This document shows, piece after piece, positions 3,000 through 5,657 of a stretch of 5,938 bases of DNA. The translations under genes and the position numbers were made by a program. The stretch spans positions 1-5,938 of the forward strand of contig PMDT01000197.1 of NCBI GenBank assembly GCA_003154555.1, written 5' to 3'. Positions within the stretch are counted from its first letter, which is position 1, and each line of letters starts with the position of its first letter. The notes beneath the pieces are model-generated. The model was given only the letters and a program-made list of their open reading frames with translations, made no database searches and was not told the DNA's origin. The DNA is from Spirochaetaceae bacterium. Its GTDB lineage: Bacteria; Spirochaetota; Spirochaetia; SZUA-6; Fen-1364.

Positions 3000-4160
3000 T
3001 CACGGCCTGGCGATGGATGACGAGGCCGCGACCGCCAGAACCATGAGCGCCACCAGCCCCAGCCCGATGCTGAGGCTGGAGGCCTTGGCCACGCCGCCAA
3101 TGATGGCCGGGCCCAGGAGCACCCCGGTGTAGGCGAGGGTGCTCGCCACGGAGACCGCCTGGCTGGCTGGCATCAGCTTCTGCCTCCCGCACAGGGAGAA
3201 GAGCACCGGCACGACATTGGACAGCCCAAGCCCGATCAGGCCGAAGCCGATGAGCATCACCCAGAGTGGCGTCGTGAAGATGACGACCAGGAAGCCCGCC
3301 GCACCGATCAGGCCTCCGAAGAGGAGGACGCGAAAGCCGCCGAGCCTCCGTACAATAGCGTCACCGGTCACCCGGCAGATGACCATGACGACAGAAAGGG
3401 CGATGTAGCCCGAGCCCGCCATGGTAATGGGGACTCCTTTGTTCGACGACAGAAAGACCGCCCCCCAATCCAGCACAGAGCCTTCAGACAGGAAGCCGAT
3501 GAACATGAGCGCCCCGACGGCCAGGACGAAACCGCGGGGAAAGACCAGCTTCTCCTTCCCGGAGGAGCGGCCCGCGTACGTCAGCAGCCCCTTCGAGAAC
3601 GAGAAGTGGAGGACAATCATCAAGACGATGGCCACGACGACCGCCGTCCAGGGGGCGGCGCGCAGGGAAAGCATGCCCGTGAGCAGGGCGGCTCCCGCGA
3701 ACCCACCGATGCTCCAGCCCGCGTGAAACCCCGACATTAAAGGGCGGCCGCTCGCCTTCTCCACGATGACGCCCTGGATGTTAACGACGACGTCGATGGC
3801 GCCGATCGCGGAGCCGAACAGGAGCAGCGCCACGACCATGCCGGGGACGGTGTCCAGCGTTGCCAGGAGGGGAAGGACTGCGCAGGCGAGCAGAGATCCG
3901 AACCGGAGGACCTTGCGGCACCCGAACCGTCCCGCCGCCCAGCCTGAAAGGAACATGGTTGCGAGGGACCCCAGGCCGAAGCAGAGGATAAGGAGGCCCA
4001 GGCCGCCGTCGTCCATGTGGAGCCGCTGCTTCGCGAACGGGATCAAAGGCGCCCATACGGCGCAAGCGAAGCCTCCAATGAAAAAGGCGACGCGCGTCGC
4101 GTATCGTTCGGCCCTGCCGGGGGCCGGGCGCTCCCCGGCCGTCTCGTCCAATTCACTCAC
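3000..4160 (-). CDS. MFS transporter, MosC/YbjJ-like
   Basis: A 386-residue inner-membrane protein with twelve predicted helices (roughly residues 23-43, 53-73, 84-102, 106-128, 148-165, 170-187, 209-227, 247-263, 277-294, 298-320, 338-358, 362-383). The loop between helices 2 and 3 carries the MFS signature [29 protein letters not shown] at the start of the second half is characteristic of the MosC/YbjJ branch, whose substrates are mostly unknown; MosC is linked to rhizopine and others are suspected sugar carriers. The start is GTG at 4158-4160, with AGGAG ten bases upstream (complement of 4171-4175). Length is normal and the frame undamaged. It converges on the GH172 gene, so they are not one operon, but a role in the same sugar pathway is plausible. 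Confidence 0.88.
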
Positions 4161-4197
4161 AGCGTGGTTGCTCCTGTTGCTTCGGGATCAGACGGTA

Positions 4198-4227
4198 TTG
4201 ATATCGCAGACATTCGTGGGCTTTCAA
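4198..4227 (-). promoter_or_regulatory. Possible promoter of the MFS gene
   Basis: On the minus strand TTGAAA (complement of 4222-4227) and TATCAA (complement of 4198-4203) are 18 bases apart and would start an mRNA about 30 bases ahead of the GTG, leaving room for the AGGAG site. Each box has four or five consensus bases. This is a by-eye prediction. Confidence 0.35.
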
Positions 4228-4315
4228 GGGGAGGCCCGCTACGACAATCCCCGTGCCGCGAGACGGCTCTGACTGCAACGCTGCCCGCCCCGCGGCGGCG
4301 GGGAGTCCCGCATCC

Positions 4316-4604
4316 TTGCCTCACGTCATTCATCGGCTTCACGGGCACGCCGATCGAAAGAGTCGATGCGAACACACGCCAGGTCTTCGGCGACTACATT
4401 TCCGTCTACGACATCCGCAAAGCCGTTGAAGACGGGGCGACGGTTCCCATCTACTATGAAGGTCGGCTGGCAAAGCTCGAGCTGAAGGAAACCGAGAGGC
4501 CCCATATCGATCCGAGGTTCAAGGAAGTGACCGAGGGAGAGGAGATCGAACGCAAGGAAAAGCTCAAGAGCCAGTGGTCGCGCCTTGAAGCCCTGGTCGG
4601 AGCG
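4316..4604 (+). pseudogene. hsdR: hsdR fragment A: helicase region (plus strand)
   Basis: This is part of the motor domain of a type I restriction endonuclease R subunit, the ATP-dependent translocase and nuclease of the HsdRMS complex. [11 protein letters not shown] (from base 4326) is the TGTP helicase motif. It is followed by [36 protein letters not shown] and [13 protein letters not shown], all hallmark HsdR blocks in the right order. The likeness ends at about 4601-4604. Just upstream, TTG CCT CAC (4316-4324) reads LPH, expected before (A)SFIGF, but in another frame, which suggests a 2-base deletion at about 4325. A complete HsdR is roughly 800-1,100 residues; about 95 remain here. The N-terminal nuclease domain and Walker motifs are absent, and no hsdM or hsdS is in the window. 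Confidence 0.85.
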
Positions 4605-4862
4605 GGCATCGTAGAATGCGAGCTCATCTTCCGTTGAGTCCCAGCTTCTCACCGCGCGCCCCTGCCGCATTCATTTCCTTGGCAAAGCGATGAGCTCCTC
4701 GATGACCTGGGCGGTCTGGATTGTACGGCTCTGGTACTTCTTTAGAGCGGTCTGGAGCATCTCGGCGAAGGAGCGCGCAACCACGACATTCTTGCGGAAA
4801 CGCGTCTTGATCTCTCCGGCGAGAAGCTTCTGCAGTAGCTCGACCGCGAGATTCTTCAGCGG
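4605..4862 (-). pseudogene. hsdR: hsdR fragment B: inverted C-terminal segment (minus strand)
   Basis: On the minus strand the region gives [18 protein letters not shown], then [14 protein letters not shown] and the [11 protein letters not shown] stretch. It continues after a shift as [16 protein letters not shown], and after a second shift as [11 protein letters not shown]. These are consecutive blocks of the C-terminal region of HsdR, but in the opposite orientation to fragments A and C on either side. Two indels break the frame: one base missing at about 4681-4683 (TTGCCAAG where TTGGCCAAG would keep AKEMN in frame) and another at about 4636-4639. The segment ends at FYDA (base 4605) on one side and at PLKN (base 4862) on the other. 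It is non-functional. No start codon or ribosome-binding site belongs to it. Confidence 0.85.
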
Positions 4863-4943
4863 CCGCCGGACAAGCAGGAAAAGGCAACGGAAACGGTTCT
4901 GGAACAAGCGGCTGTTCTGTCAGAGGAATGGGCCGTCGCCTGA
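4863..4943 (+). pseudogene. hsdR: hsdR fragment C: native C-terminus (plus strand)
   Basis: On the plus strand [20 protein letters not shown], then EEWAVA and a TGA stop at 4941-4943, is the extreme C-terminus of HsdR (family ends commonly read like YGYPPDKQ...TVLxQAexL). It is in the same orientation as fragment A and on the other side of the inverted fragment B. The usual fifty or so residues between FYDA and the PPDK motif are missing. The immediate left boundary is the codon at 4863, where plus-strand PPDK and minus-strand PLKN meet back to back. It was identified from a 26-residue peptide only, but the order, orientation and stop position all agree. Confidence 0.75.
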
Positions 4944-4947
4944 TATC

Positions 4948-4971
4948 AAGGCCAATCAACCCGCCTTTTTT
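4948..4971 (+). terminator. Probable intrinsic terminator of hsdR
   Basis: AAGGC (4948-4952) pairs with GCCTT (4963-4967), with a 10-base loop, and the right arm runs into six T (4966-4971). It starts five bases after the hsdR stop, which fits a native terminator left with the gene's tail. The stem is short, so strength is uncertain. Confidence 0.4.
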
Positions 4972-5124
4972 GCTGTCTCTGTTATTCGGCCCTGGCTGAA
5001 TCTTGACGAAGCCTTAGCGGTTCGGCGATTCGCTTCGGGCAAACAAATCGACATTCCCGTCATTTTATCATTGACCGCGTCGTCCGAGTTGAACCTCCCG
5101 TCAAATCGTCGCCGGCATCACAGA
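4972..5124. other. Intergenic gap behind two convergent units
   Basis: These 153 bases lie between the hsdR tail and the end of the small DUF4258 partner gene. Composition is less GC-rich around 5041-5080. A CGAAGC...GCTTCG pairing (5007-5012 with 5032-5037) has a 19-base loop and no T-tract. I see no coding signal that I trust here. Confidence 0.4.
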
Positions 5125-5337
5125 TCACGACACCGGGGTCAAGGAAAAAACGCGCGAAGATCGGGATGCTGCGGTGATATCGCCCCGCCGCAAGGCTTCC
5201 CTCACATCATCGAGTTTGTACGCATCATCTAAGGAAAGATATGGCGACCATCCGGTCTCGTCTTGCAAAAGCTCTATATCGACTTCGGCCATATACTTGC
5301 CTTCGTGAACGATCTTGGTTCGCTTGCGCGTTGTCAT
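5125..5337 (-). CDS. Small partner protein of the DUF4258 gene
   Basis: A 70-residue protein of a small conserved family without an established function. The N-terminus TKIVHEGKYMAEVDIELL looks beta-stranded. TGWSPYLSLDDAYKLDDVRE, then ALRRGDI, looks like a helix, with a basic end RVFSLTPVS. I recall close relatives as short genes sitting directly after DUF4258 genes. Here its ATG overlaps the upstream stop in an ATGA (5334-5337), and a strong AGGAGG (complement of 5343-5348) lies five bases before the start, inside the upstream gene. Such coupling suggests obligate partners, most likely an antitoxin-like protein, but that is inferred from arrangement and size only. No DNA-binding motif is obvious. 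Confidence 0.75.
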   Translation of the reverse strand: MTTRKRTKIVHEGKYMAEVDIELLQDETGWSPYLSLDDAYKLDDVREALRRGDITAASRSSRVFSLTPVS

Positions 5338-5657
5338 TTCGCCCTCCTGGAAAAGTCGTCAACCCAACGTTCCGGGTCGGGCCGATATGCGGTGATTAAA
5401 ACTGCCGGAGAAAGCTCATGCCTCGGGATGCCCCAGACGGCATGGACGGCGTTCCCTCGGTTGTCTCTCTGACGGACAAGGACGCACGGCCCTTTGGTGA
5501 AAGACGGATACTCTTCTATCAGAAACGCATCCTGAAGCCCTTCCACTATTTCTCGTGCGGAGATCCCATCGGCAGCCAACTCATCGTATCCATGTTCCGA
5601 GATCTTCACCGTGCCGGCCCCAACGAGCTCACGGATGCGTTGAAGGGTGTCACCCAT
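5334..5657 (-). CDS. DUF4258-domain protein, putative toxin partner
   Basis: A 107-residue protein that fits DUF4258 (PF14076): an N-terminal helix (LQRIRELVGAG), KISEHGYDELAADGIS (about 18-33) with the family histidine (H22), a central beta region ending in NAVHAVWGI (H72), and the closing strand and tail VLITAYRPDPERWVDDF (about 86-102). The size and pairing resemble small RNase toxins of RelE-like modules, but I know of no proven activity and treat toxin function as inference. The start ATG at 5657 has AAGGAG directly abutting it with no spacer, too close for normal use. The predicted promoter would begin transcription within a few bases of the ATG. The start is supported by domain length rather than by the ribosome-binding site. 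Confidence 0.8.
   Translation of the reverse strand: MGDTLQRIRELVGAGTVKISEHGYDELAADGISAREIVEGLQDAFLIEEYPSFTKGPCVLVRQRDNRGNAVHAVWGIPRHELSPAVLITAYRPDPERWVDDFSRRAK
5343..5348 (-). promoter_or_regulatory. Ribosome-binding site of the small partner gene
   Basis: AGGAGG on the minus strand, five bases before the ATG at 5337, lies inside the last codons of the DUF4258 gene (encoding its Arg-Arg). It supports independent re-initiation and the chosen start. Confidence 0.75.

Follow-up and report, generated by a model that had tools for sequence, protein, structure and literature searches.

The window, by which we mean the whole 5,938-nucleotide stretch of DNA that was analysed, comprises positions 1 to 5938 of contig C366 in a binned assembly of a Spirochaetaceae bacterium (GCA_003154555.1, here G000). 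The assembly totals 3.47 Mb in 418 contigs and is 69% complete with 2.8% contamination, and the contig itself ends at 6263, with NN at 5939-5940. Pfam searches identified a Phd/YefM-like antitoxin paired with a PIN-domain toxin at 152-804, with both reading frames open, as well as a minus-strand pair of small open reading frames (ORFs) at 5125-5657, one of which contains DUF4258 and the other of which, at 70 amino acids, has no Pfam match. A segment of 31 bases at 803-833 is 97% identical to contig C342 of the same-genus genome G001 (L171:2580-2610); no Rfam family was detected up to E 0.5, this segment included. Separate from that similarity, the interval 912-1725 holds the C-terminal half of a LacI-family regulator gene on the minus strand, and its homology to the G001 copy ends after 1465, the G001 contig having only 69 bases beyond the match. 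Head to head with this fragment is a weak C-terminal amidohydrolase match on the plus strand (approximately 1500-1725; 24.1 bits against a cut-off of 26.4). Judged from these matches, the junction between the two is likely a second gene-breaking join in the contig, in addition to the broken gene described below.

Between these features lies a remnant of hsdR in three pieces, designated A, M and C (Table 1). Our reference was the intact 1048-residue HsdR of the same-order genome G004 (L020:3587-6730); a second intact gene of the same order, a 1045-residue open frame, is found in G014. Searching with the G004 protein (tblastn) gave exactly three matches on the contig, and the same three places, with no others, in the entire assembly. 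Piece A is 77% identical to G004 HsdR from 4326 to its end (E 2e-40) and contains a SWI2_SNF2 domain (Pfam, E 4e-24). Piece M, read on the minus strand from 4856 down to 4605, is 60% identical to residues 882-965 (E 7e-23) and matches positions 164-223 of the T1RH-like_C profile (E 6e-21); over the whole piece this profile, PF11867, scores 91 bits, with one TGA inside. Piece C is 83% identical to the reference over 4863-4931 (E 4e-7) and 91% identical over 23 residues to the HsdR of same-genus G001, and it matches T1RH-like_C weakly (E 0.0025, profile 308-328, 17.7 bits, below the curated cut-off of 26.8). The PADLOC model REase_I (PDLC03040), applied to pieces A and M, matches both. The three parts are collinear with HsdR, and only the middle one is on the minus strand. 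In the G004 gene the same parts occupy one strand in the normal order, approximately 990 bp and 174 bp apart. Measured against this intact gene, approximately 990 bp (330 codons) are absent at the left join and 174 bp (58 codons) at the right join, meaning that there is a deletion at each end of the inverted piece if the ancestor resembled the intact homologues. An earlier sequence-only reading of this DNA had proposed three HsdR parts in these orientations, and aligning all three to a single full-length HsdR agrees with it. Its description of the locus as an inversion plus deletions is likewise upheld by those alignments and by the join mapping below, and it was right that residues are lost at both joins, although its sizes of about 400 and 50 residues need correcting to the values given here.

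Table 1. Features of the hsdR remnant, in window coordinates.
Feature	Position	Strand	Description	Basis
Piece A	4316..4604, secure from 4326	+	hsdR helicase-domain remnant, HsdR 457-549	tblastn, Pfam
Left join A/M	4603..4606		crossover between C4603 (A side) and G4606 (M side); 0-2 shared bases, without filler	base frequencies, 81 A-side and 74 M-side homologues
Piece M	4605..4862	-	inverted hsdR remnant, HsdR 880-965, 86 codons	tblastn, PF11867, codon comparison
Frame change in M (offsetting)	4633..4635	-	apparent 1-base gain	tblastx frames, MAFFT alignment
Frame change in M	4677..4689	-	apparent 1-base loss	tblastx frames, MAFFT alignment
Palindrome GCGGCCGC	4859..4866		8 bp, centred on right join	repeat search
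Right join M/C	4862..4864		crossover between G4862 (M side) and C4864 (C side); 0-1 shared base, without filler	base frequencies, 74 M-side and 73 C-side homologues
Piece C	4863..4943	+	hsdR C-terminus, HsdR 1024-1046, then on to TGA stop	tblastn

The joins were mapped from the frequency of the window base at the matching sites of homologues (81 on the A side, 74 on the M side and 73 on the C side, of 82 loci), and each could be narrowed down to roughly three bases. On the left, C4603 occurs in 86% of A-side homologues and in 0% of M-side homologues, G4606 is found in 11% and 100%, respectively, and the two bases between them are compatible with either side (G4604, 47% A and 85% M; G4605, 77% A and 34% M). 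At the right join, G4862 is present in 77% of M-side and 0% of C-side homologues and C4864 in 0% and 100%, respectively, with C4863 compatible with either side (88% M, 100% C). A repeat search found no inverted repeats bridging 4604/4605 and 4862/4863, where the sequence-only reading had suggested looking for them; the sole bridging feature is the palindrome GCGGCCGC, which arises because both joined ends start with CCGC and which may be there by chance.

These results bear on invertase action, one of the origins put forward for the flip by that reading, in which a site-specific recombinase would reversibly turn the segment over. Intragenic kinds of bacterial invertons exist, and an in-place flip within a gene resembles one at first sight. 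However, invertons have inverted repeats of 10-40 nt on their flanks, as described in the available sections of one report (PMC11892184), and there are none at this flipped piece, on which ground a phase switch was rejected as a candidate. Furthermore, turning the piece back would not restore the gene, as approximately 990 and 174 bp would still be missing, and no recombinase is present among the window ORFs scanned with Pfam, a set that takes in some of the small ORFs. We consider the probability of an inverton here to be negligible. The same near-absence of shared sequence weighs against one form of the assembly artefact that had also been suggested: misassembly driven by repeats requires long shared words and is unlikely at joins that share at most 2 bases, leaving a chimera formed during amplification as the version that has to be weighed.

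The flip is not the only damage to the gene. HsdR residues 1-456 are also absent from the remnant. The correct frame of piece A starts at 4326, and translation from 4316 runs into three stops; the residues LPH encoded at 4316-4324 are in a different frame, giving an apparent indel near 4325. The translation of piece M has one stop and is not a single open frame, in addition to the two frame changes listed in Table 1. Searching the flanks at 4150-4330 and 4925-5135 for more of hsdR gave weak matches only, the best at E 0.002 and outside hsdR. The ten codons upstream of piece A (4292-4321) were considered as hsdR with E 0.014 in L020 and L021, but with 17 of 30 bases identical to L020 they were not counted. 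The missing first 456 codons and the frameshifts would represent damage separate from the flip. By homology the locus is an hsdR pseudogene, as every piece corresponds to HsdR at the expected residues and there is no intact frame. Reduced to approximately 202 of 1048 residues, with one part inverted, the remnant as it reads cannot encode an R subunit.

Signs of how long the gene has been decaying are modest. Differences between piece M and G004 at first plus second versus third codon positions number 32:32, compared to 16:34 for the intact pair G001-G004 (Fisher p 0.059), which is suggestive of relaxed constraint in piece M on the branch leading to the window. Conserved columns are violated at 3 of 58 sites in piece A, 2 of 21 in piece M and 0 of 11 in piece C, counts that are equalled or exceeded by 18 of 83, 12 of 76 and 75 of 75 homologues, respectively. 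Because these counts are within the range of intact genes, the decay, if neutral, would be young. Overall, the sequence hints weakly that the gene was already decaying before the event.

Given this additional damage, the view taken in the sequence-only reading, that the inversion put a type I restriction system permanently out of action, is plausible as to the outcome but less certain as to the cause. No match to the HsdM and HsdS domains PF02384 and PF01420 was found in the 69%-complete G000 or in same-family G002, and both have matches in same-genus G001. With the gene broken in several other ways and the partner subunits not found in an incomplete assembly, the system was not necessarily disabled by the flip.

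A gene in this condition might have acquired its arrangement in several unrelated steps, a simple inversion in a dead gene with ordinary deletions before or after. The missing N-terminus and the frameshifts would suit such a history, as would the existence elsewhere of hsdR remnants produced by plain loss (G016, P0214, L137 and L138, described below). Nevertheless, both deletions stop exactly at the ends of the inversion, a coincidence that separate events do not require, and we regard this explanation as decidedly unlikely. It is even harder to credit that piece M came from another hsdR copy and was inserted between A and C by chance. The best-matching homologues of A and M do differ, and the correlations of bit scores between pieces (rho 0.70 for A-M, 0.55 for A-C and 0.45 for M-C) are lower than those between the corresponding parts of the G004 gene (0.85, 0.71 and 0.67). 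On the other hand, no second hsdR is seen in the assembly, the same-genus gene ranks second (tied) for M and first for C, and M fits the correct gap without overlap, a weak argument given that, on a rough estimate, about 40% of random pieces would fit equally well. Insertion from another copy is extremely unlikely on this evidence.

We examined whether the arrangement occurs elsewhere. Among hsdR loci from named records, none of 80 (the best 80 of at least 566 confirmed) has pieces on both strands; more than 950 residues are covered in 64 of 81 loci when the window's own contig is counted in. Within the order, the C-terminal family is found in 13 of 26 genomes with no both-strand matches on one contig, a weak test of strand in that a lone match of this family cannot reveal a flip. 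When five partial same-order loci (L022, L059, L060, L061 and L062) were compared to full HsdR, more than one piece was seen only in L060 and L062, both on a single strand. Scanning the class gave a match in 183 of 394 genomes among the matches listed, a figure that does not reach weak pieces such as M and is hence not counted for recurrence. Same-genus G001 offers no control, since its hsdR is visible only as two pieces at contig ends.

At the protein level, neither join is shared by any of 222 related proteins. This set of limited-length proteins was assembled from all 102 matches of one search and the best 120 of 1079 of another, with P0001, one of 223 proteins in all, removed as it is itself window sequence. 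Nine of the 222 were flagged as running past a join, and seven of these nine are one stretch in HsdR order in which the join is not seen. P0214 has a plain internal deletion that joins the helicase region to the C-terminus. P0065 (115 amino acids) departs from HsdR at residue 964, near the edge of piece M at 965; its tail has no match to the window beyond the join, with 322 of 500 shuffles scoring equally high. Another short protein, P0002 (124 amino acids, from another assembly), is 87% identical to piece M over 77% of the query and departs from HsdR after residue 956. No near-identical relative was found among the relatives and matches listed. Remnants of a simpler kind were encountered. The hsdR of G016 (L060, G016:C27) retains residues 3-261, 614-798 and 1013-1033 on one strand, and an isolated middle with the rest of the gene missing is found at both L137:3426-3797 (residues 432-555) and L138:3432-3815 of Meiothermus luteus (residues 434-561), the latter at the end of a 1009-residue ORF that is in part a distant HsdR match. 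L137 and L138 were retrieved with piece A as the query, making this a set enriched for remnants that keep that region. In the literature searched, which covered few subscription journals and of which PMC2483231, PMC5869714 and PMC8149714 were available in part, we found no published hsdR in which a segment inside the gene has been flipped on the spot.

The failure to find either join in the 222 proteins examined is also what would be expected of an artefact, namely a chimera, such as can form when the DNA of few cells undergoes multiple displacement amplification (MDA), in which opposite strands became joined twice within 258 bp. In the available portions of one single-cell study, more than 85% of MDA chimeras were inverted with an intervening deletion; those sharing 0-1 bases made up roughly a quarter to a third, where the paper's own values of 76.8 and 33.2 percent do not total 100 (PMC1855051). 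That pattern resembles the window, and an assembly that is fragmented and incomplete, with NN immediately after the window, adds to the concern. Against this, a chimera would need two template switches 258 bp apart in one molecule that went on to reach the consensus. Furthermore, no other contig of the assembly, incomplete as it is, supplies the absent hsdR stretches, the search yielding the three matches only, and the frameshifts in M and the missing N-terminus are not expected from such a chimera. On balance an artefact is unlikely, though it has to be taken seriously.

The explanation that we favour, with moderate confidence, is that the flip is what remained after two double-strand breaks had been trimmed at their ends and religated, a repair predicted to involve the end-joining proteins that the assembly encodes. 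One break would have occurred in each of the lost stretches, the four broken ends would then have been trimmed back, and the freed middle piece would have been ligated in backwards, with the flip and both losses arising as one event. Ku and an NHEJ ligase, for both of which the assembly has genes, would have done the sealing, and hsdR would have been dispensable beforehand or from that moment on. Contig C308 of G000 encodes a 300-residue Ku (TIGR02772, 253 bits, cut-off 150), directly followed by an NHEJ ligase (TIGR02779, 231.8 bits, cut-off 227.75), and an 888-residue open frame with a ligase domain is present on contig C60. The joins are blunt or near-blunt (0-2 and 0-1 shared bases), as for an NHEJ product. 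It is these near-blunt joins, together with the Ku gene and its NHEJ-type ligase neighbour, that make an end-joining scar the best account, the repair step itself being what we infer. In the accessible text of work on Streptomyces, repair of induced breaks leaves scars that are called classical NHEJ, and fragments from elsewhere in the genome may end up within the repaired site (PMC5869714). The likely second gene-breaking join in the contig, at the LacI-family fragment, also speaks in favour of this explanation. Ku alone is no predictor of such a scar, since G004 and G014 have Ku together with an intact hsdR. In addition, there is no Ku match in same-genus G001 or same-family G002, which leaves room for the 5.4-kb Ku contig to be, in principle, a foreign sequence placed in this bin. 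The deletions could also be later than the inversion, and an overlap of as many as 2 bases on the left fits alternative end joining or template switching as well.

Template switching during replication, whether by fork stalling or by microhomology-mediated break-induced replication, is the main biological rival of end joining. Here the copying strand would cross over to the opposite strand and later return, leaving two stretches uncopied, and a deletion-inversion-deletion would result from a single pass. In favour of it, a 2-base overlap is possible at the left join and the right join is on the 8-bp palindrome. As far as the available sections go, the mechanism is the one favoured by the authors of a study of complex variants in human disease, but at the human junctions microhomology was 3 bp or more in 8 of 8 (PMC6286558), compared to at most 2 and at most 1 here, and we consider it rather unlikely at this locus. 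A more elaborate version of the end-joining explanation is that the breaks were self-inflicted: once the modification half had gone, the type I nuclease would have cut its own chromosome, now unprotected, at sites that included its own gene, and Ku and ligase would have sealed the trimmed ends with the middle backwards, leaving a locus that records both its destruction and its repair. This is very unlikely, yet if it were true, scars of cutting, trimming and flipping would be a recurring route of restriction-gene loss in NHEJ-proficient bacteria.

Returning to the end-joining scar, the locus is likely a real-looking deletion-inversion-deletion in a decayed hsdR, an accident of known kind in a known gene and no new system, as far as sequence comparison can tell. 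In-place inversion with loss on both sides has already been described in human disease genes, as in the sections available for CEP78 (PMC6286558). What the present case would add is a bacterial example with joins placed within about three bases and with Ku and an NHEJ ligase in the assembly, providing a testable picture of how bacterial end joining might scramble a gene. It also carries a caution, in that automated gene prediction may present a locus of this kind as two or three ORFs with no relation to one another.

Among known systems, the protein family is plainly the type I restriction subunit HsdR (SWI2_SNF2 plus T1RH-like_C; PADLOC REase_I PDLC03040), to which all three pieces of the window match. 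The plain-deletion remnants (G016 C27, P0214, L137 and L138) are likewise decayed and keep the helicase region or the C-terminus, but unlike the window they have all of their pieces on one strand. The available description of bacterial invertons (PMC11892184) shares with the window an inverted segment, here inside a gene; in contrast, the flipped piece has no inverted repeats at its ends, the ORFs scanned include no invertase, and with the flanking DNA lost a switch back to a working gene is impossible. MDA chimeras, as reported in the accessible part of PMC1855051, likewise have inverted joins, intervening deletion and little shared sequence, whereas the window has two joins 258 bp apart in a gene that is otherwise decayed. 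The same architecture is seen in the deletion-inversion-deletion of human CEP78, for which the sections available of PMC6286558 give a deletion of 5.7 kb, an inversion of 298 bp and a deletion of nearly 10 kb. The flipped piece is of like length (298 bp compared to 258 bp here), and the window differs in being a bacterial gene remnant, in its smaller deletions of approximately 990 and 174 bp, and in sharing at most 2 bp at its joins rather than 3 bp or more.
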